This document shows positions 26,684 through 47,051 of a DNA stretch of 64,000 bases, in pieces. A program made the position numbers and the translations under genes. The stretch lies in assembly GCF_007655485.1 (NCBI RefSeq), contig NZ_VJXQ01000001.1, forward strand, positions 999,081-1,063,080, given 5' to 3'. Position 1 is the stretch's first letter; every line of letters starts with the position of its first letter. Origin of the DNA: Halobellus captivus. Its GTDB lineage: Archaea > Halobacteriota > Halobacteria > Halobacteriales > Haloferacaceae. The notes beneath the pieces are model-generated. The model was not told where the DNA came from. It saw only the letters and a list, made by a program, of their open reading frames with translations, and made no database searches.

Positions 26684-26710
26684 GCGCGCTCGATCGGTGG
26701 CGCTCGGGCG

Positions 26711-26812
26711 GCGACCGCTGCGATCGGGCATCGAACGTTGTACGGCGACCGCTGCGGTCGGGCGACCGCCACGGTCGGACGACGACCGATGTACCGCCGC
26801 TGCGATCGGACG
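26711..26812. repeat. 17-bp degenerate tandem repeat, six units, with dyads
   Basis: Six consecutive 17-base units. Three read close to GCGACCGCTGCGGTCGG (26711-26727, 26745-26761, 26762-26778); the unit at 26745 contains a perfect dyad, CGACCGC-T-GCGGTCG. The others are decayed. The array fills the gap between pilC and the methyltransferase gene. Confidence 0.75.
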
Positions 26813-35471: not shown

Positions 35472-36302
35472 ATGCGAGGTGACGGGGCGGAGAACGTCAA
35501 TCAGACAACGAAAGCGATGCGGCATCGGACCGACCGCGCAGTGAGCGAGACGGTCAGTTTCGTCCTCGTGTTCGCGCTCGTCATCGCATCCGTCGGCACC
35601 GTCTACGCCGTCGGCGTCTCGGAGTTGGAGGAAACGCGGGACGCCGAGCGGGTCGAGAACGCCGAGCGCGCGTTCGACGTCCTCGCCGACAACCTCGGGG
35701 ACGTGATCGAGGGCGCGCCCAGTCGCGGGACGGAGGTGAAACTCGCCGACTCGACGGTCCGCACCGCGGACGACGCCTCGATGAACGTGACCGTCGACCC
35801 CGAGGGCGCGGCGGCGGAGTCGTGGGAGTTCTCGCTGCGGCCGCTCGTCTACGAGGCCGCGACCGGCGGCGAGGTCCGACTCAGCAGCGGTGCCGTGCTC
35901 CGCGACAGTCCCCGCGGCGAGGCGTCGGTCGTTCGCGGTCCGCCGCTGATCGTCGACGGCGTCGACGGCGGAAGCGGCGGCGACGGCTCACGGGTCCGAC
36001 TCACGCTCCTCAAGCAGGAGCACGTCGGGACCGCCGCGGTCGGCGGCTCCCAGACCGTCCGGATCCGCACGGAGGGCAGCAGGCCCCGGCTCTTCTACGA
36101 CGCAGACGGCGGCCACGATCTCACGGTGAACGTCACGACGCCGCACACTGACGCGTGGGCGCGCCAGTACGTAACGTCCGGATTCGACTGTACGGAGGTC
36201 AGCGGGCCCACCGCCGACTCACCGGGACGGATCTCCTGCACCGCGTCCGACGTGGATCAAGTGACGGTGGTGTGGGTTCGCGTGACGACGTCGTTCGAGT
36301 GA
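35472..36302 (+). CDS. Pilin-like protein, DUF7289-type
   Basis: A 276-residue surface protein with one N-terminal membrane segment. MRHRTDRAVSETVSFVLVFALVIASVGTVYAVG resembles archaeal type IV prepilin signals, with the charged DRAVS junction just before the hydrophobic helix; the rest is beta-rich and Gly/Ser-rich. It lies on the plus strand just downstream of the minus-strand pilus operon's end and resembles its DUF7289-like member, so it may be a minor pilin. The start at 35472 fits an ACTTAACT box exactly 27 bases upstream. Confidence 0.75.
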   Translation: MRGDGAENVNQTTKAMRHRTDRAVSETVSFVLVFALVIASVGTVYAVGVSELEETRDAERVENAERAFDVLADNLGDVIEGAPSRGTEVKLADSTVRTADDASMNVTVDPEGAAAESWEFSLRPLVYEAATGGEVRLSSGAVLRDSPRGEASVVRGPPLIVDGVDGGSGGDGSRVRLTLLKQEHVGTAAVGGSQTVRIRTEGSRPRLFYDADGGHDLTVNVTTPHTDAWARQYVTSGFDCTEVSGPTADSPGRISCTASDVDQVTVVWVRVTTSFE

Positions 36303-36895: not shown

Positions 36896-36940
36896 TCAGT
36901 CGAGTTCGACGGTCATAGTCTCAGTCGAGTTCGACGGTCA
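36896..36940. repeat. 20-bp direct repeat at the 3' end of the pilin-like gene
   Basis: TCAGTCGAGTTCGACGGTCA occurs at 36896-36915 and 36921-36940. The second copy is the last 20 bases of the minus-strand gene at 36921, including its stop; the first lies just beyond it. Confidence 0.9.
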
Positions 36941-38444
36941 CGTTGTTCTCCGTCACGTGCAGGTACGTGATGTAGGATTCGCCAGCGATCGTGTCGTAGC
37001 GCAGCGTCCCGCCAGATTCGCTGTTGGATATCTGCGATGTTCCGCGGTTCCCCGGCCCGTGATACACGGTGAGATCGAACTCCGAATCGAACATCGCGAA
37101 GTAGTGGCGGGTGAGAATCCGGAGGTTCTGGGCGTCGCCGTAGGAGTACGTCGTGTCCTCGCCGTCGTCGCCTGTGTGCGCGAATGTGGTGGGGTTCGGA
37201 TCTCCCGCGGCGTCGGCGTCGCGCTCGTCCCAGTCGATCGCGGTGTCGTCGAGACTGCTTGATCCGTACGTGAACTCCTGCTCGGTGCTCGTGAAGTCGA
37301 TGTCGATCACCGTGTCGCCGTCCTCGCAGTCGAGTTGAACGGCCCCCGAATCGGACGGGATCGAGTCGTTCGTCCAGCGGTGAACGCCTTCCGGGGTCGA
37401 CGCGTCATCGTAGTAGATGTCCATCGTCAGCGTTTCCGAACCGGGTTCGCCGCCGTTGCAGTAGTTGTTGCCGATGCCGTTCGGTACCTCGACGGCCGCC
37501 TCGTAGGCCTTGTCGCCGTCCTCGACGTAGAAGGAGACGAAGATGTTGTTGAACGTCCCACCGTCCTTTTTGATGGACGTCTGGAAGTCGGTGACAGAGT
37601 GCCCGTCATCGATACCGCGAACGGGGATACTCTCGCCCTTCTCGGGATACGCGAACGCGCCGACCTCGTTGGCCGTTTCGAGAACGACGGTCGCCGTCCG
37701 GTTGTCGTGATCGACGGAAACGTTTCCGGTCGTCCGGGTCCGGAAGTAGTCGGCCCAACCCTCGTAATAGGCGCTGTGGACCGTCACGTCGACAGTCCCG
37801 TTCGTGACCGGGTTCACGTACTGTCGGATCGAGCCGTCTTCGGCTTCGACGTCGTACGGCGCGCCGACGCCGTCAGTGTCGGTCGCCGCCTCGTTCGGAT
37901 AGATCCGGGTCAACTCGCCCGATCGGCGGACGGTCGCCCGCGTATCGCCGCTGGCCGTGTCGGTCGAGCGGACGCGGAGCACCGGCAGCGTCAGGGTCGT
38001 CCCGCGGTAGTGGAACTCCGGCGGCGATACCATCGACGTGCCGCCGCCCTCCTGCCGCCAGACGCCGCCGCCTTGGTAGGCGACCGTCGTCTCGTCCGTT
38101 CGGTAGGAGACCGAGCCGAGCGAGGCGTTGTAGATATCCTCGGTCTCTCCGGCGGTGTAGTTCTCGTGTCTGATCCGCAGCCATCCGCTCTCGGATTCGG
38201 CGGCGTAGGTCCCGCCGCTGGAATCGCCGAGCCGGACCGTCTGAACGGAACCCTCACCGAGTCCCACGACCGCCGCCCGAGCGTCGAGCAGCGTCATCGC
38301 GTGCTCCGCGCGGTCGATCGACGTGCTGTCCTGCACGTCGGTCAGGGCCGTCGAACCGAGCGCGACGACGACGCCCGCGCCGGTGATCGTCAGCGCTAAC
38401 AGTAACACGAGTCCGATGTTCGACGCCTGCGCGCGATCAGTCAT
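36921..38444 (-). CDS. Large pilin-like protein, DUF7289-type (operon member 7)
   Basis: A 507-residue protein with one N-terminal membrane helix preceded by a DRAQ motif (MTDRAQASNIGLVLLLALTITGAGVVVALG), as in archaeal prepilins. The long exported part is beta-rich, with many NxT/S sites and repeated aspartate/threonine stretches, fitting a glycosylated surface protein. It is the last gene of the seven-gene pilus operon and overlaps the preceding gene by four bases (ATGA type). It may form a tip or minor pilin; the role is inferred from context. Confidence 0.75.
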   Translation of the reverse strand: MTDRAQASNIGLVLLLALTITGAGVVVALGSTALTDVQDSTSIDRAEHAMTLLDARAAVVGLGEGSVQTVRLGDSSGGTYAAESESGWLRIRHENYTAGETEDIYNASLGSVSYRTDETTVAYQGGGVWRQEGGGTSMVSPPEFHYRGTTLTLPVLRVRSTDTASGDTRATVRRSGELTRIYPNEAATDTDGVGAPYDVEAEDGSIRQYVNPVTNGTVDVTVHSAYYEGWADYFRTRTTGNVSVDHDNRTATVVLETANEVGAFAYPEKGESIPVRGIDDGHSVTDFQTSIKKDGGTFNNIFVSFYVEDGDKAYEAAVEVPNGIGNNYCNGGEPGSETLTMDIYYDDASTPEGVHRWTNDSIPSDSGAVQLDCEDGDTVIDIDFTSTEQEFTYGSSSLDDTAIDWDERDADAAGDPNPTTFAHTGDDGEDTTYSYGDAQNLRILTRHYFAMFDSEFDLTVYHGPGNRGTSQISNSESGGTLRYDTIAGESYITYLHVTENNVTVELD

Positions 38445-39016
38445 ACTGGTTGCCCCCCAAATCGTCCGATGTCGACCGCAGCGGGTCGCGACAGCGAGAG
38501 CGCGTCCGCACCGCCTTCCCCCTCGGAGACGACGAGCGACTCGCCGCCCGTCGTGTCGAGTTCGATGACGACCCGGCCGCCGTTCGCGGACGTCTCGTCC
38601 ACGTCAACGATCGTCGAGACGGTAAGCGTGACGCTCACGTCTGACCGCACAGAGCGGAGTGTCAGGTCGTACTGTCCCGGCTGTGCGCCCGGCGGCGACT
38701 GCTCGCTGATCTCGATTCGGTAGGACTCACCGGCGACTCGATCCGGGAGATCGACACCGATCCGGAGGGTGGGAGGCGATGCGGTCGATCTCGAAATTCG
38801 GTCCGCGTCGTCGATCCCGGCGGCGAGCTGCTCGGCGAGGACGTCGAGTTCCTCGCGGACGACGCGGTCGCGCTCGTTCTCGACGTAGCCGCTCCCCGCG
38901 ATGAGTAGCCCCGAAACGAGAACCGCGGTGATGCTCAGCGCGATCACGTAGTTCACCGTGACCGAGACCGCGCGATCCCGCCGGGTGTCGCCGTCGCGGC
39001 GCGAGGGTCGATTCAT
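38441..39016 (-). CDS. Pilin-like protein, DUF7266-type (operon member 6)
   Basis: A 191-residue protein with a basic N-terminus, DRAVSVTV motif and a membrane helix (residues about 15-45), followed by a beta-rich exported domain. It belongs with the prepilin-like set of this operon. Four-base overlaps with both neighbours show coupled translation. Confidence 0.75.
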   Translation of the reverse strand: MNRPSRRDGDTRRDRAVSVTVNYVIALSITAVLVSGLLIAGSGYVENERDRVVREELDVLAEQLAAGIDDADRISRSTASPPTLRIGVDLPDRVAGESYRIEISEQSPPGAQPGQYDLTLRSVRSDVSVTLTVSTIVDVDETSANGGRVVIELDTTGGESLVVSEGEGGADALSLSRPAAVDIGRFGGQPV

Positions 39017-40149
39017 TCCGGCAGCACCTCGATTCGCGCCTCGTAGTCAAGTTCCTCGGTCCGGTACGTCACGTCGAACTGCGCGCCGTAGATCGCGTGC
39101 GTCCAGTAGGGCGACCCGCCGTCGACGGCGTCGACGCCCAGTGCGGAGAGTTCTCCGGGTCGCTCGTCAAGCACCATCGTGTACGTGCCACCGGCCATCT
39201 GCGAGTCCCGATAGCTGATCTCGACGTCGTCGCCGACGGCGGAGACGTTCGACAGCGCCGGGCACGCCGCCCCGCCGACGGACTCGTTCGGGACGTCGAT
39301 CACGAACGTCCCGTCGGTGACCGAGCCCGCGAAACAGGCCGGGCGTGCGGTCCCGTCGTCGACCACGCGGACCGCCGGATTCCCGCCGTCGTCGTAGACG
39401 AACAGACTCGTGGTGCCCGCATCCGAGGAGACGTTGACGTGGAAGACGTCGTCGGCGACGAGGTCCGACGGATCGTCCGCGAGCGTCGATTCGTCGACGG
39501 TAAGGCGCATCGAGCGGACGCCCGAGAGGTCGGCATCGGCGGCGACGGTCCAGTTCCGGTCGCCCGCGTCGCTCGTGAAATCCCGTGAGGCGTCGTCCTG
39601 CTGGATCCGCGTCCCGTTCGTCACGGTCGCCACCTCGACGGCGACGACGTCGCCCCCGACGGCTCGGTGATGTGAGGCGAGGTCGTCCCAGCGATCGATC
39701 GCGGACCGGAAGGCCGCGTTCAACTCGGTCGGGTCGCTGTTGTTGCGGTCGTTCACCGAGCGAACGGCCTCGACGCCCGCCGCGCGGGATTCGGAGACGT
39801 ACTCGATCACGGGCGTCGCGTCCACGCCAGCGTCGCGCGTCGCCAGGTTTCCGGTGTAGATCGCGGTGTTCAAAAGCAGCGCCAGCGCGACGAACAGGAC
39901 CGCGAGCGCGAGCGCGCCGACGAGGAGCAACTGCCCGCGGTCGCGGTCTCCCCCGAGTGACTGCCCGCTGTCACGGATTCTCTTGCGTGGCTGACCGCTG
40001 CTTCGGTCTCTCCTGAGTGACTGACCGCTGCTTCGGTCTCGACTGGGTGACTGACCGCTGTCTCGGTCGTCCCGAAGCGACTGGCAGCGGTCGCCGTCTC
40101 GAGAACGTGGCTTCCGCGTCGCGTCGGGGGAGGGAGTCACATCCGCCAT
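39013..40149 (-). CDS. Pilin-like protein with N-terminal ten-residue repeats, DUF7261-type (operon member 5)
   Basis: A 378-residue protein. Residues 21-80 form a ladder of six ten-residue units in exact register. Four start SGQ (31, 41, 51, 61), the first is decayed, and the last is RGQLLLVGAL, which opens the membrane helix (about 72-95). The usual relatives start directly with DRGQLLLVG, so the repeats look like copies of that segment before its hydrophobic part. At DNA level the unit is 30 bases (about 39910-40089). The exported domain is beta-rich. A GTG at 40140 is an alternative start that would give the standard four-base GTGA overlap. Confidence 0.75.
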   Translation of the reverse strand: MADVTPSPDATRKPRSRDGDRCQSLRDDRDSGQSPSRDRSSGQSLRRDRSSGQPRKRIRDSGQSLGGDRDRGQLLLVGALALAVLFVALALLLNTAIYTGNLATRDAGVDATPVIEYVSESRAAGVEAVRSVNDRNNSDPTELNAAFRSAIDRWDDLASHHRAVGGDVVAVEVATVTNGTRIQQDDASRDFTSDAGDRNWTVAADADLSGVRSMRLTVDESTLADDPSDLVADDVFHVNVSSDAGTTSLFVYDDGGNPAVRVVDDGTARPACFAGSVTDGTFVIDVPNESVGGAACPALSNVSAVGDDVEISYRDSQMAGGTYTMVLDERPGELSALGVDAVDGGSPYWTHAIYGAQFDVTYRTEELDYEARIEVLPE

Positions 40150-40721
40150 ACGACGAGTTCGACCTCCACAACGGAGTACAGCGTCTGTTCGGGATCTCGG
40201 TCCTGGACGAGGTAGGAGGCGTTCTCCAGGGTCGTATCCGAGAGCGATTCGTCCGGGTTGCGCAATCGGTCGCCGTCAGAGAGCGTAACGAGTCGCCGCT
40301 CGGTCGAGGCGTGGTCGCTCGGCTCGCCGAGGTCGACGATGGGATCGCGCTGCCGCTCGCCGCTGTCGTCGATATAGTACAGCGTGAGATCGAACGCGAT
40401 CCCGCGTTCGAGGAACGTCTCTTCGAGCATGTCTCCGAACGCGGTCGGCGGCGGGCCGCGAACGTAGCCGTCCGGGGTCGCGCCGTGCCAGCCACCTGCC
40501 GACTCGTTCCAGTACAGGAGCGTCGACGCGAGCGTCCCGTTCTCGTCCGCGGTCGCGAGGACGCCCTCGGCGACGGCGGCCTGTTGGTTCTCGATGTGCT
40601 GGCTGGACGTGCTGCCGGTCAGCGGCGTGACGGCCGTCACCTGCAGCGCGAAGACCAGACTGGAGACGAGGATCATCGCGGCGGTGATCGCCTCCAGCGT
40701 GTGGGCCTGTCCGCGGTCCAT
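40137..40721 (-). CDS. Pilin-like protein, DUF7288-type (operon member 4)
   Basis: A 194-residue protein beginning MDRGQAHTLEAITAAMILVSSLVFALQV: a DRGQ motif directly followed by a membrane helix, then an exported domain with several glycosylation-type NxS/T sites. The ATG at 40721 is chosen because it overlaps the TGA of the previous gene by one base (TGATG), like other joints of this operon; two GTG codons just upstream are possible alternatives. Confidence 0.75.
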   Translation of the reverse strand: MDRGQAHTLEAITAAMILVSSLVFALQVTAVTPLTGSTSSQHIENQQAAVAEGVLATADENGTLASTLLYWNESAGGWHGATPDGYVRGPPPTAFGDMLEETFLERGIAFDLTLYYIDDSGERQRDPIVDLGEPSDHASTERRLVTLSDGDRLRNPDESLSDTTLENASYLVQDRDPEQTLYSVVEVELVVWRM

Positions 40722-41236
40722 CACCACACCCTCACGAGCAGTCGGTACGTCTCGCCGTCGATCGAGACGACGCGCTGTGCGGACGTCACAGACCGCGTCT
40801 CCGGCAGCGACGGGCCCGCGGTGAGCGTCGTGCCGTCGACCGTCGCGACGCCGCCGTCGAGTTCGTGGACCGAGACGTTGGCGTCGCGCGGTCCGTCGAG
40901 TGAGAGGAGCGCCGCGGTCGTGTCCGCGGTCGTGTCGAACTGGCAGTCGAGGGGCGCGTCGTCACCGCCGTTGAGTTGGTCGAACAGCCCGGTCGTGCAG
41001 GTGGCGTTCAGCAGGTACGGCTCCGCGGGATCGCCGAGACGGTCCGTCGAGAGCGACGTCGCGATTCGGTCGGCCGTCTGCGGGCCCTCCGCGCTCTGGA
41101 ACGGCGCGAACACCGTCGGCACGAACGCGACGACGAACGCGACGACGAGCAGAAACAGCCCGATGCCGATCGCGAAGTCGATGGTCGTCTGCGCGCGGGC
41201 CCCGCGGCGGTGACCGCTCGTCGGCGATAGCGGCAT
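40721..41236 (-). CDS. Pilin-like protein, DUF7287-type (operon member 3)
   Basis: A 171-residue protein starting MPLSPTSGHRRGARAQTTIDFAIGIGLFLLVVAFVVAFVP: a basic leader, an ARAQTTIDFAIG prepilin-like junction and one membrane helix. The exported part has two cysteines. It starts in the stop codon of the pilC gene (TGATG, one-base overlap). Confidence 0.75.
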   Translation of the reverse strand: MPLSPTSGHRRGARAQTTIDFAIGIGLFLLVVAFVVAFVPTVFAPFQSAEGPQTADRIATSLSTDRLGDPAEPYLLNATCTTGLFDQLNGGDDAPLDCQFDTTADTTAALLSLDGPRDANVSVHELDGGVATVDGTTLTAGPSLPETRSVTSAQRVVSIDGETYRLLVRVW

Positions 41237-43287
41237 CACCCCACCACCATCCAGGTGAACAGCGCGATCGTCTGCAGGATGACGACGAACTTCACCCCGG
41301 AGACGATGTCGGCGTCGCGGATGTAGCCGCTGATGAACCCCGACAGCGCCGCCTGCAGCGTCACCGCGTGGAAGAACAACACCGAAAGCAACTGGGTGTC
41401 GACGCCCCCGCCGAAGTTCAGTCCCTGCCCGGCGAGTTCGTCGCCGCCGGTCGCACTGGCCTGCGACGTCAACCCCGACATCACGTCGAGGAACTGCGTC
41501 TTCAAGATCGCCATCACGCCGAGCAGCGTCAGGTACGTCATCAGGATGATCGCGACCTGCATCCGCGTTCTCGACTTCCGCTCGCGCTCGATGTCGTCTT
41601 GGTTCTCCGACGCCTGCGCCGCGGTGGTCAGCACCTCGGTGATCTGACTCGACGCCTCCTGCGCCTTCGAGATGAGCTTGACCGTTCGGGCGAGCCGCGG
41701 GATGTGGTACTTGTTGTTGAACTCGACGAGCGCGCTGCGCAGGCTCATCCCGTAGTTCACCTTCGCGTGCATCACCTCGAACTCCTCGGCGAGTTTCCCC
41801 GAGGAGGTCGACGCCACCGTCTCGACGGATTCCAGCAGCGTCTGACCGGTGTCGTTCGCGCTGGAGAGCTTCCGGAGGTTGTCCGAGAGCTTCCCGATGA
41901 CCGCGTTCCGCGAGCGGACGTTCCAGGTGTGAAACACCGCCAGCGGGACGCCGACGACGTAAGTGGGCACGTACCACCACATAAACGTCCCCCAGACGGG
42001 GTTTTCGACCATCCCCGACCACGTCAGCGGCGCGGCGCCGTTGACCACCGCGACGGCGAGGAGCGCGAGCGCCGCCGGAACGGTCAGCGCCAGCGTGTAC
42101 AGCGGGTTGTCGCGGAAGAACAGGTGCGGATTCCTGAGCAGCTCTCCCGTCTTGTAGGTCCCCTCCCGCGAGCGGATCCGATCGAAGAGCCGGAACTCCC
42201 CGACGAAGCTCTCGATCAATCCCATGTGGATCAGCCCCTCTCGGTTGACCTGTTCGAGTCGATCGGAGCTGTTCGACGGCTGCAGGTAGCCGTCCCCGGG
42301 TTCGTCCTGTTTGACCGTCGAGACGAGCACGAGAAACGCCACGCCGGTGAGGGGAATCAGCCCGTAGACGGTCCCGTAGAGCAGTTCCTGCTGCGCCTGC
42401 CCGAGCATACTCATGATGACGAGGATGATGATGAGAAGCAGCGGAAACAGCGACAGCGTCATGTACATCTCGCCGAACAGCTCCAGCGTCTCGAGGATGG
42501 TCTCCTGTTCCTGTTTCGCGGTTCGGAGGTGTTTCTCCTTCTTATCGGAGAGGAACTGCTCCATATTGCCGCCGGAGTTGACGATCGAGAGCATATCCGT
42601 CAGGAACTGCGAGAGCTCCTCGGAGGGCGTCGTCATCGCCTGATCGCGGATCGCGTTCCGGTAGTCGGTGCCGAAGTATTCCGTCTCGCGGACAATGCTC
42701 TGGAACTCCTGGGCGACCTCGCCGTAGGTGTCGTCGGCGCGGCCCATCGCCTCCAGGATTTCCAGTTGGTTCAGCCCGCCGACCGAGAGCGCGTACATGA
42801 ACGAGATCGCGTCCGGGAGCAGCATATTGATCTCGCGCTTCCGTCCCGACGCCGTCGAGTACGGCACGGCGACGAGACCGCCGAAGCCCAGTCCGAAACC
42901 GATCGCACCGAAGACAACGCCGGAGACGAGCGTGACCGCGGGAACGGTGAGCGCTTTCAGCGCCGCGGCCGTCTCGGCGTCCGGCGCGGGAAGGCCGATG
43001 CTGATCGCCTCCGGCGAGACGAGACCGAGCGCGAAGATCGCCCACACGACGACCGTCCCGACGAGCCAGAGTACGCCGCCCGCGATGACGCCGATCGCGA
43101 TCGCGTGCGAGAGGTACAGTTCGACCGTCGACGGCATCCGCGCCTGTTCGAGCTTTCTCGCCAGATCGGCGACGAAATCGCCGTCCTCGTCGAAGAAGAA
43201 CTGGAACACCGGATAGAAGGCGTCGCCGAGCGTGTCCGTGCTCCGGTCGAGTCCGTCGCTGTCGGTGTCGCCGACGTCCAGACTCAT
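41236..43287 (-). CDS. pilC: Type IV pilus membrane platform protein (PilC-type, second copy, operon member 2)
   Basis: A 683-residue membrane protein with two type II secretion F domains. The first is around residues 155-280 (LLPDAISFMYALSVGGLNQLEILEAMGRAD); the second, around 460-590 (VIGKLSDNLRKLSSANDTGQTLLESVETVASTSSG), is followed by membrane helices. It is the inner-membrane platform for the second pilus system. It overlaps pilB by four bases and the next pilin-like gene by one. Confidence 0.9.
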   Translation of the reverse strand: MSLDVGDTDSDGLDRSTDTLGDAFYPVFQFFFDEDGDFVADLARKLEQARMPSTVELYLSHAIAIGVIAGGVLWLVGTVVVWAIFALGLVSPEAISIGLPAPDAETAAALKALTVPAVTLVSGVVFGAIGFGLGFGGLVAVPYSTASGRKREINMLLPDAISFMYALSVGGLNQLEILEAMGRADDTYGEVAQEFQSIVRETEYFGTDYRNAIRDQAMTTPSEELSQFLTDMLSIVNSGGNMEQFLSDKKEKHLRTAKQEQETILETLELFGEMYMTLSLFPLLLIIILVIMSMLGQAQQELLYGTVYGLIPLTGVAFLVLVSTVKQDEPGDGYLQPSNSSDRLEQVNREGLIHMGLIESFVGEFRLFDRIRSREGTYKTGELLRNPHLFFRDNPLYTLALTVPAALALLAVAVVNGAAPLTWSGMVENPVWGTFMWWYVPTYVVGVPLAVFHTWNVRSRNAVIGKLSDNLRKLSSANDTGQTLLESVETVASTSSGKLAEEFEVMHAKVNYGMSLRSALVEFNNKYHIPRLARTVKLISKAQEASSQITEVLTTAAQASENQDDIERERKSRTRMQVAIILMTYLTLLGVMAILKTQFLDVMSGLTSQASATGGDELAGQGLNFGGGVDTQLLSVLFFHAVTLQAALSGFISGYIRDADIVSGVKFVVILQTIALFTWMVVG

Positions 43288-46200
43288 CGCCCGGTCCCCG
43301 CCGACTCGTCGGACGCGCTTCCCTCCTCGTCGCCTTCGGAAGCCGTACTCTCCTCCGCGTCTCCTTCAGCAGTCTCGCTCTCCTCTGCGGTGTCTCCGTC
43401 AGTCCCGCTCAGCTCCGCGTCGACGTCAGCGACGGACCTGTCGCCGTCGTCGACCGTCCTGACGTCACCGAAATCCCACGCGTCGTCGCTGTCGATCTCG
43501 GTCTCCCCGCTCGCTTCGTCAGTCGCGTCGTCTGCCGCACCGTCCGCACCGTTCGTAGTCTCTCCGACCTCTTCGTCCCCTCCTTCCCCCTCGACCGGAT
43601 CGCCCCCGCCGAATTCGACCGGCGAATTCCGGTCGACACCGCCGTTCGCCTCGGCGCTCTCGCCCTCCACTGAACCCGCAGAATCGTCATCGAAGGCAGG
43701 GCCTTCGAGCAAGTCTTCGATACCGAGTTCACCGGCGTCGCCGTCGTCAGAGTCCACCGAATCAGCCTCACGACGGTCCGTCCCGCCTTCGGTCGCGGCT
43801 GTCTCCGATTCGTCGTCTGCGGTCCCCGTCTCCGACTCCCCGTCTAACGCCGGTGTCTCTGCGCTATCGTCGAGCGTCGGCGCATCCGATCCATCGTCGA
43901 GGGCAGATGCGTCCGATCCGTCGTCGAGCGCGGGTGCGTCGGTCCGCTCTTCGAGGGCGTCGAGTTCGGGGTGGTCGCCACGTTCGGCGGTGACGTCTGG
44001 GGCCGTCTCGACGTCGAGCAGCGCGTCCGCGACGTCGACATCGTCCAGGTCCCGGTAGTCGGGCCACAGTTCCTCCTCGGCGCGTTCGAGGATCTCCGTA
44101 CAGAGCGCTTGGATCTCCTCGCCGGGGCTCGGCCGCGGGACCATCGCCTCCTTCTCGGGGTCGACGTTGATCTCGACGGATTCCATCTCCCGCAGGTCTT
44201 CGAGGCTCCGTTCGAGGCCGTCGCGCGCCATCAGCGCGAGGATCGTCTCCTGATCGTTGATGAACGCCTGCAGCGTCGCCGCCACCTGCGAGTACGTGTT
44301 GAGGCCGCGGTCGATGAGGTACGCGAGCACGACGTGCCGCTTGAACAGTTCATCGTCGAGTTGCTCGCGGGTCCAGCCGCGGTCGAACCGGACGTCCGCG
44401 AGGGTGTTCGACGAACCCATCTTGAGGAATTCGTCGCCCTCCGCCTGCCACTGGTAGACGTCCTGGACGTTGATCTCGTCGTTCTCGGCGTCGTAGTGGT
44501 TGATCTCCGTCAGCGACTTGTTCCGCCTGACCTTGTTGCCCTGCACGCGCGTCGACGTCTGAACCGAGACGAGATCCAGGGCGGTGAACATCGTCTTTGA
44601 GACGTTGATCGGGTCGGTAGTAAAGCGCTTGAGCACCTCGCCGACGCTGTCGGCGTGGAACGTCGTGTACGTCGTGTGACCCGTGCTCATCACCTGGAAC
44701 AGCGTCCGCCCCTCCTCGCCGCGAATCTCGCCCATCACGATGTAGTCCGGGCGCTGTCGAAGCGCGGCCTCCAGTAAGTCGAACTCGTCGACGTCTCCGC
44801 GGTCGTCGTCGCTGAACGACGGCCGGGTGACGGAGGCGACCCAGTTGCGCTGGGGCAGTTCGACCTCGCGGGTGTCCTCGATCGAGACGATCTTCGAGTT
44901 CGAGGGGATGAAGAGCGACACCGCGTTCAGCGAGGTCGTCTTCCCCGAGGCGGTCCCCCCGGCGAAGATGAGGCTCTTGTCGTTCTCGATGCAGAGCCAG
45001 AGGAACGCCATCTCCTCCAACGAAAAGGTCTTCCAGTTGATGAGGTCGATCGGGGTGAACGGGACGTCCTTGAACTGGCGGATGGTGTAGTTCGTCCCGT
45101 GGTCCGACACCTCTCGGCCGAGCGTCAGCTGCGCGCGCGACCCGTCCGGGAGCGTCGCGTCGACCTGCGGCCGCCGCTTGGAGATGCCCTTGCCCGACCG
45201 CTGGGCGAGTTTGACGACGAAGTCGTCGAGTTCGTTCTCCCCGTGGTAGACGTTGGAGATGATCTGCTCGTAGTCGGAGTGGTAGACGAACACCGGCGAG
45301 TTGTAGCCGTCGCAGGAGATGTCCTCGACGTTGACGTCGTGTTTGATCGGATCGATGCGCTCGTAGCCGATGAAGTCGCGGCGGAGGACGTACAGCAGTT
45401 TCTCGACCTGGTAGTCGGTCAGTTCCGTCGCGTCCTCTTCAAGCACCGCTGGCTCGGGGCGGGCCGCGATGCCGTCGAGCGAGGGATCGCTCGCCACCGA
45501 CGACGCCCCGGCGAACAACCCGTCGAACCGACCGCCGAGTGAGCCTTCACGGAGTCCCAACGATCGAGCGATCGACGCCATCGACCGTTTCGACGACGCG
45601 CCGTCCCCAGAGGCTATTTCGCTGTCCTCGCCGCCGCCGCGACCGAACGGGAGCTCGAAGTCGAACGTCGAGAGGAATCCGTCATCCTCGGGGTCATCGG
45701 CGACGTCGCCGTTTCTCGTCGCGAGGACCGACAGCCCCGTCTGCCGGGGGTGGTCGGGAACGCGGTAGAGGTTGTACCGTTCGAGCAGTTCCAGCGACTG
45801 CTGTTCGATCACGCGGCGGCGCGTTTCGGGGCCACCGCCAACGACGCTCTCGTCGTCGTATTTGATCGCCGTCCGGAGCTTCCCGGTCAGGTACTCGGCT
45901 AAGTCGGCCTCGATCCGGTTCTGGTACGGTTCGACCGCATAGTACTTCTTCTCGTTCTCCTTCGTCGAGTGGAAGATGATCACGAACGAGTGCGGTTCGT
46001 TGACCCAATACCGTTCGACCTCCCTGAAGTGGGTCTTCTTTTCCAGCGGAACGGCCTTCTCCAGATCGTACCGGTTGACGACCGTCGTCGCACCGCGGGC
46101 GTTCGCAAAGAACGCGTCCTCGTCGAGTTCCGGGTTCACGTCGACCGTTCGCTCGTCGACGACCTCCTCGAGTTCCGTCGCTCGCTTCGCACCGTGGGCG

Positions 46201-47051
46201 AGCACGTCTTCGATCGCGTCGGGGTCGAAGCCCAGCGCCTCGCTCTCGTCGAAGCGGTCGATCTCGCCGTCATCGTCTCGCGGGCGCGAGCCGTCTTCCT
46301 CGTAGTAGTACTCGCGCTTGTAGTGCTCCCAGAGCCAGACGTCCTTGACTACGGGGGTCGTCTCAGGGTCACAAAACGCCTCGAACTCCCGCTGGATTCG
46401 CGTCGCCTCGCCGATCGCCGAGACGAGTTCCTCGGTCGTCTCGACGGGGTGGAACCCGAGGTGCGCCTCGACGTCGACGCTCACCGCGTCCCAGTCCTCG
46501 CGGGTCGGCGTCGGGATCTCCACGCCGTCGTCCCAGCGGGCGTTCTCCCCGTCGTCGGCCCCGTGATAGTCTCGCGGGTCGATCCCGCCGTACAGCGTCT
46601 CGACGTCGCCCTCGACGCCGTACTCGTCGAGAAAATCCGACCAGGTGTACGCGCCGACGGCGACTCGCGGTCCGTCGGGATCGGATCCGTCTCCTCCCTC
46701 ACCCGCTTCCGCGTCGTCTGTCGAGCGGTCGGCCTCCTCACCAGTTGGTTGATCCGCGACCTCGCCCGTCAGTTGGTTCGACGGTCCGTCAGACGGGCCC
46801 TCAGTCGATCCGTCGGACCGGTCGTCCGAACCCACCGCAGGCTGTGTAGTCGATCCGTCGGCCGGTTGATCTCCGTCCGCAGTCGGTTGAAGCCCCCCAG
46901 CCCCATCCGCGCTCGATCCGTTCGAAGTCTCGGCGGCCCGATCGACGGCCTCCCCCTCGTGCGTCGACGGGGAACCGTCCCCGTCGCCCTCCAACGCGTC
47001 GTCGCCGTCCCCCTCGGGATCGGCCGCCGACGCGTCGTCGTCGGTTGCCAT
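43284..47051 (-). CDS. pilB: Type IV pilus / secretion ATPase with long acidic tails (PilB-type, second copy, operon member 1)
   Basis: A 1255-residue relative of the 609-residue PilB at 22699. The first 130 residues are almost only Asp, Glu, Gly, Ser and Thr. The N-terminal domain follows, then Walker A FAGGTASGKTTSLNAV (about 698-713), KIVSIEDTREVEL, YIVMGEIRGEEGRTLFQVMSTGH and TTFHADSVGEVLKRF. The last 250 residues are again acidic, including ladder-like DAPALDDGSDASALDDGSD repeats near 1023-1058. The motor core is complete. It is the first gene of the operon; AT-rich TATA candidates lie 45-60 bases upstream, so a leader is likely. Confidence 0.9.
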   Translation of the reverse strand: MATDDDASAADPEGDGDDALEGDGDGSPSTHEGEAVDRAAETSNGSSADGAGGLQPTADGDQPADGSTTQPAVGSDDRSDGSTEGPSDGPSNQLTGEVADQPTGEEADRSTDDAEAGEGGDGSDPDGPRVAVGAYTWSDFLDEYGVEGDVETLYGGIDPRDYHGADDGENARWDDGVEIPTPTREDWDAVSVDVEAHLGFHPVETTEELVSAIGEATRIQREFEAFCDPETTPVVKDVWLWEHYKREYYYEEDGSRPRDDDGEIDRFDESEALGFDPDAIEDVLAHGAKRATELEEVVDERTVDVNPELDEDAFFANARGATTVVNRYDLEKAVPLEKKTHFREVERYWVNEPHSFVIIFHSTKENEKKYYAVEPYQNRIEADLAEYLTGKLRTAIKYDDESVVGGGPETRRRVIEQQSLELLERYNLYRVPDHPRQTGLSVLATRNGDVADDPEDDGFLSTFDFELPFGRGGGEDSEIASGDGASSKRSMASIARSLGLREGSLGGRFDGLFAGASSVASDPSLDGIAARPEPAVLEEDATELTDYQVEKLLYVLRRDFIGYERIDPIKHDVNVEDISCDGYNSPVFVYHSDYEQIISNVYHGENELDDFVVKLAQRSGKGISKRRPQVDATLPDGSRAQLTLGREVSDHGTNYTIRQFKDVPFTPIDLINWKTFSLEEMAFLWLCIENDKSLIFAGGTASGKTTSLNAVSLFIPSNSKIVSIEDTREVELPQRNWVASVTRPSFSDDDRGDVDEFDLLEAALRQRPDYIVMGEIRGEEGRTLFQVMSTGHTTYTTFHADSVGEVLKRFTTDPINVSKTMFTALDLVSVQTSTRVQGNKVRRNKSLTEINHYDAENDEINVQDVYQWQAEGDEFLKMGSSNTLADVRFDRGWTREQLDDELFKRHVVLAYLIDRGLNTYSQVAATLQAFINDQETILALMARDGLERSLEDLREMESVEINVDPEKEAMVPRPSPGEEIQALCTEILERAEEELWPDYRDLDDVDVADALLDVETAPDVTAERGDHPELDALEERTDAPALDDGSDASALDDGSDAPTLDDSAETPALDGESETGTADDESETAATEGGTDRREADSVDSDDGDAGELGIEDLLEGPAFDDDSAGSVEGESAEANGGVDRNSPVEFGGGDPVEGEGGDEEVGETTNGADGAADDATDEASGETEIDSDDAWDFGDVRTVDDGDRSVADVDAELSGTDGDTAEESETAEGDAEESTASEGDEEGSASDESAGTGR

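Follow-up and report, generated by a model that had tools for sequence, protein, structure and literature searches.

A ladder of pre-junction repeats in the leader of a predicted minor-pilin-like protein from Halobellus captivus

The window analysed here, a 64,000-nucleotide stretch of the Halobellus captivus genome, contains a pilin-like gene of the DUF7261 family in which six 30-bp units, in perfect register and free of indels (39931-40110, minus strand), encode residues 14-73 and make up the bulk of a 72-residue leader. We consider it likely that this ladder arose by slippage-type expansion of a hydrophilic leader, that such expansion is tolerated because a cut at the last unit probably removes the leader, and that the product is a minor-pilin-like protein belonging to a PilB/PilC-type pilus cluster in Halobellus. 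The ladder is a real oddity, which probably represents a tolerated tandem duplication rather than demonstrating a new mechanism. The features on which this reading is built are collected in Table 1.

Table 1. Features of the repeat-bearing gene and its surroundings, in window coordinates
Feature	Positions	Strand	Details
DUF7261 pilin-like gene	39013-40149	minus	Open frame, 378 aa; Pfam DUF7261; orthologues
ATG start	40147-40149	minus	Lies where this gene and the end of the DUF7288 gene overlap by 13 bp; MAD[VL] conservation
Repeat unit U1	40081-40110	minus	PRSRDGDRCQ
Repeat unit U2	40051-40080	minus	SLRDDRDSGQ
Repeat unit U3	40021-40050	minus	SPSRDRSSGQ
Repeat unit U4	39991-40020	minus	SLRRDRSSGQ
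Repeat unit U5	39961-39990	minus	PRKRIRDSGQ
Repeat unit U6, intact junction	39931-39960	minus	SLGGDRDRGQ; predicted cut Gly72/Gln73 (39934/39933)
Hydrophobic segment, start of the mature N-terminal helix	39871-39930	minus	Residues 74-93, LLLVGALALAVLFVALALLL; nearly invariant in the genus
DUF7289/DUF7308 pilin-like gene	36921-38444	minus	Open frame and Pfam
DUF7266 pilin-like gene, downstream	38441-39016	minus	Open frame and Pfam
DUF7288 pilin-like gene, upstream	40137-40727	minus	Leader of a few residues, MVMD/RGQ
DUF7287 pilin-like gene, mature part	40721-41185	minus	Pfam
PilC/FlaJ-type membrane platform gene	41236-43287	minus	T2SSF domain, E 1e-25
PilB-type ATPase gene, PilB3-like	43284-47051	minus	T2SSE, E 1.5e-30

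The repeat array

The initial annotation described six ten-residue units in exact register before a membrane helix, the last of them being the real junction, and both the sequence itself and a shuffle test bear this out. The array is the top tandem repeat of the window (score 139 among 31 rows from Tandem Repeats Finder), and its period-10 nucleotide identity of 62.4% compares with a mean of 34.6% and a maximum of 43.2% in 10,000 codon shuffles. The end of U6 coincides with a prepilin-type junction, DRDRGQ/LLLVGALAL; the unit is directly followed by LLLVGALALAVLF and runs without a gap into LLLVGALALAVLFVALALLLNTAIY. The copies had further been described as reading SGQS, which is true of U2, U3 and U5, but not of U4 (SGQP) or U1 (RCQS).

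Divergence between the units (pS 0.41 and pN 0.30, with pN/pS near 0.7) suggests that they are not fresh copies, and shows little sign of strong constraint and no clear selection. The DR-SGQ core of the units is better preserved than their first codons and, given this, the repeats may be under mild selection.

The proposed resemblance of the array to words in the intergenic repeats of the window found no support: a search of the organism's own genome with the array DNA gave no significant second copy (next best match, E 0.08), and when the ladder was compared with the window's 27 other tandem arrays, the similarity of the best (26710-26809; p = 0.01, uncorrected) was no longer significant after correction. 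The same shortage of similar DNA in the genome speaks against the idea that the repeat acts as DNA or RNA, through protein binding or translation coupling, and not as protein. Such a role could draw on the location of the array shortly past the overlap with the upstream gene, and on a 30-bp period that approximates to three helical turns; nevertheless, the frame is preserved throughout, and the array is missing from sister species that retain the overlap, such that we regard it as very unlikely.

Translation start

Were translation to begin at or after the last unit, as the initial annotation had allowed, the repeats would be absent from the protein. However, the MAD[VL] start is invariant among the aligned Halobellus orthologues and common across the family, and there is no in-frame ATG, GTG or TTG between codon 4 (GTG) and codon 74 (TTG). 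The TTG would allow a start past the repeats, but initiation there would drop the Arg-Gly of the junction itself, and the upstream ATG is conserved across the genus; we regard such a start as barely conceivable. As far as the sequence can tell, the repeats are translated.

The prepilin junction

Prepilins are characterized by Gly, Ala or Ser at position -1 and by a hydrophobic segment thereafter, with archaea also needing a charged residue at -2 (reviewed in PMC4371748). U6 alone conforms to the archaeal version of this rule: Arg71 and Gly72 precede Gln73, and the hydrophobic segment that follows has a mean hydropathy of 3.0. The DR[GA]Q junction is conserved among the orthologues. Moreover, the leader (residues 1-72) is hydrophilic and positive, with a net charge of +6 as compared with -33 for the mature part, and the predicted cut by prepilin peptidase after Gly72 would remove the whole ladder. 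One gene in the genome matches the A24 family of prepilin peptidases.

The remaining units are deficient in these respects: U2-U5 have Ser at -2, so that the charge is missing, U1 has Cys in place of Gly at -1, and none of the five is followed by a hydrophobic segment, the mean hydropathy there being -2.1 to 0.3. The loss of the cutting site across the copies involves only a few independent mutations. It had been suggested that the copies supply decoy sites for the peptidase, or by extension docking sites, and the repeated segment is indeed the one that precedes the junction; however, archaeal prepilin peptidases depend critically on a charged residue at -2 (PMC4371748), and copies that lack either this residue or the Gly at -1, and that have no hydrophobic segment after them, make for hardly credible decoys.

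Genomic context

In Pfam, the gene product matches DUF7261 (PF23922) at 33.7 bits against a cut-off of 27, over profile positions 2-107 of 169. A second match to this profile, and a much closer one (E 4.9e-55), lies in the same genome beyond the window (G000:C1:903148-903663). Our literature search found no paper naming the family, a search of the sequences of solved structures with the protein gave no credible match, and the plasmid records searched for the gene yielded a single distant match, from Haloferax.

The gene is co-stranded with T2SSE and T2SSF genes upstream, which places it in a pilB/pilC cluster. The likeness of the ATPase to PilB3 comes from a PilB3_C score of 28.8 bits, barely above the cut-off of 27, and a PilB3_N score of 22.6, which is below the cut-off. 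The ATPase comprises 1255 residues, and its long ends are acidic and of low complexity, with a 27-bp tandem array among them at 43867-43959. A further pilin-like frame, on the plus strand at 35472-36302, has the junction DRAVSETVSFVLVFALVIA.

Among the 17 Halobellus genomes searched, the DUF7261 gene is present in 12 (that of the window and 11 others). Three genomes that are 89-99% complete (G014, G015 and G016) gave no match to either this gene or DUF7288; part of the genus seems either to lack the cluster or to have a much diverged version of it.

Predicted structure of the mature protein

The model of the mature part has a mean pLDDT of 87.7 (29 sequences), with residues 29-37 poorly determined. 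Its N-terminal helix, spanning residues 2-33, starts at the junction and leads into another two helices and then a head rich in beta structure; as modelled, this corresponds to the type IV pilin-like architecture of a long N-terminal helix plus a globular, largely beta head. The full-length model (11 sequences) was poor, with a pLDDT of 48, and no structure was predicted for the leader.

Foldseek, run with the mature-part model, returned nothing at E ≤ 0.001. In a further structural comparison, the matches listed were beta-sandwich lectin-like domains with Z scores of 6-8.5, and there was no type IV pilin among them; a likeness of this order may be a mere common arrangement. The predicted head (39109-39621) resembles laminin G of SHBG, galectin and beta-glucanase, at a Z level that is not decisive. 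A Pil protein of Streptococcus sanguinis has been described with a lectin/glucanase-type domain (PMC6497953), and, going by the model, it is conceivable that the DUF7261 protein is a lectin-like minor pilin.

Leader length and independent duplication

Measured as the number of residues that precede the R[GA]Q motif, the DUF7261 leaders of 69 species have a median length of 18 (quartiles 10-25), and the three longest measure 42, 52 and 70. The 70-residue leader belongs to the window's protein and amounts to about a fourfold lengthening, in agreement with the earlier proposal that the repeats lengthen a cytoplasmic leader. Leader lengths range from a few to 70 residues while the start and the junction stay fixed; the part from the junction onwards has about 300 residues (roughly 292-343 in most complete genes).

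On a tree built from the mature parts of DUF7261 proteins, the window's gene groups with those of two other genomes, G008 and G009 (support 99/97), the leaders of which have 17 and 27 residues and contain no ladder. With its closest relatives lacking one, the ladder is, on the sequences compared, lineage-specific. The orthologue in Halobellus G004 carries a 42-bp tandem duplication, identical at 39 of 42 positions, that gives DRDRGQRSRVRPAADRDRGQLLLVG and ends at the same Gln. This orthologue is placed with those of G003 and G005 (100/100), both of which are without a ladder. Because each groups with ladderless relatives, the two expansions are independent on this tree. Slippage had been put forward as a source of variation: the separate 42-bp duplication in a second species supports it as an origin of such arrays, but the diverged units lend no support to variation by slippage at the present day.

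Strict and looser degenerate DNA patterns, covering only ladders of D[RS][GA]Q words, were used to search 391 haloarchaeal genomes, and matched one and five of them, respectively. In-frame ladders of this type were confined to the window's gene and the G004 orthologue; the three other matches to the looser pattern were rejected, being either not in frame (17- and 29-base gaps) or interrupted by a stop in that frame. Weaker internal repeats were seen in two further DUF7261 leaders: that of L106 (genome G054), MADVSDAVERVSEAVGEVSEASG, which has a tandem pattern of seven residues (codon shuffling, p = 0.004), and that of L076 (p = 0.01), both values being uncorrected for the number of leaders tested.

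Origin and possible roles of the ladder

We propose that an ancestral pre-junction segment, of the approximate form xxxxDRDRGQ, was tandem-duplicated in frame in the window's lineage, presumably through slippage or unequal recombination. The copies would then have lost their cutting-site features, which only the last unit, lying directly against the hydrophobic helix, retains. The predicted cut after Gly72 would remove all of the repeats together and leave a mature pilin of normal length, at about 306 residues; growth of the leader would be tolerated because the whole ladder falls within the segment removed on processing, and the repeats themselves would have no strong function. A copy that extended into the hydrophobic helix would add another site or helix and would presumably not persist; this may explain why both arrays end at the Gln. 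Given that both duplications end exactly there, the pre-junction segment could be favoured rather than merely permitted.

Selection might instead have expanded a long, basic, hydrophilic leader that is functional in its own right, serving membrane insertion, peptidase access, the timing of processing or contact with PilB/PilC. The opposite charges of the leader and the mature part are consistent with the positive-inside rule, and the same segment has been expanded twice independently within one genus, yet leaders of only 17 and 27 residues suffice in sister species, and the length and sequence of the leader are unconstrained across the family. Similarly, the spacer codons are less well preserved than the DR/S-GQ core, but this has to be weighed against a pN/pS near 0.7 among the units; overall, we judge an advantageous leader of this sort to be unlikely. 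The ladder might also be a selected length dial, whereby pre-junction duplications control the retention of the precursor or its presentation to the peptidase or assembly platform, and changes in unit number between strains alter assembly; this is decidedly improbable. More generally, the comparisons show that pilin-like proteins of this family can undergo a severalfold extension ahead of the cutting site with the start, the junction and the mature protein remaining fixed, and that such growth can begin, twice independently, from the junction's own sequence. Proteins of this kind may escape tools in which the prepilin motif is expected close to the N-terminus. If repeat number does affect processing, it would provide a simple handle on the role of leader length in pilus assembly.

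Relation to known systems

The protein resembles those with archaeal class III (type IV prepilin) signal peptides, which are cut by PibD, in having a charged hydrophilic leader that ends in Arg-Gly (positions -2 and -1), a hydrophobic helix thereafter and an association with a pilB/pilC cluster; it differs in that the leader runs to 72 residues, largely repeated copies of the pre-junction segment. Methanococcus EppA-type (DUF361) pilins have a K/RGQ junction with Gln at +1 and Glu at +5; the RGQ and the Gln at +1 are shared, but there is Val at +5 here, such that the Gln/Glu combination is not. In the pil locus of Streptococcus sanguinis, leaders have 8-18 residues, and its major pilins count as long-leadered (PMC6497953; PMC10191384). 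In the literature searched, of which the coverage was incomplete, we found no paper on repeated pilin leaders, nor any account of a repeated-junction leader of such length.

Within the DUF7261 family, the operon position after DUF7288 and the junction are as in the orthologues, whereas the window's protein has the longest of the 69 leaders and the sole multi-unit ladder of its kind. The G004 orthologue is alike in having a tandem pre-junction copy, but its unit has 14 residues and is present in two copies. Leader lengths were also compared for the neighbouring families (L003-L008 and L010-L015): those of DUF7287 have about 7-49 residues, those of DUF7266 about 4-28 and those of DUF7288 only 2-5, with the longest DUF7287 and DUF7266 leaders being found in L006 (Halobellus rarus).
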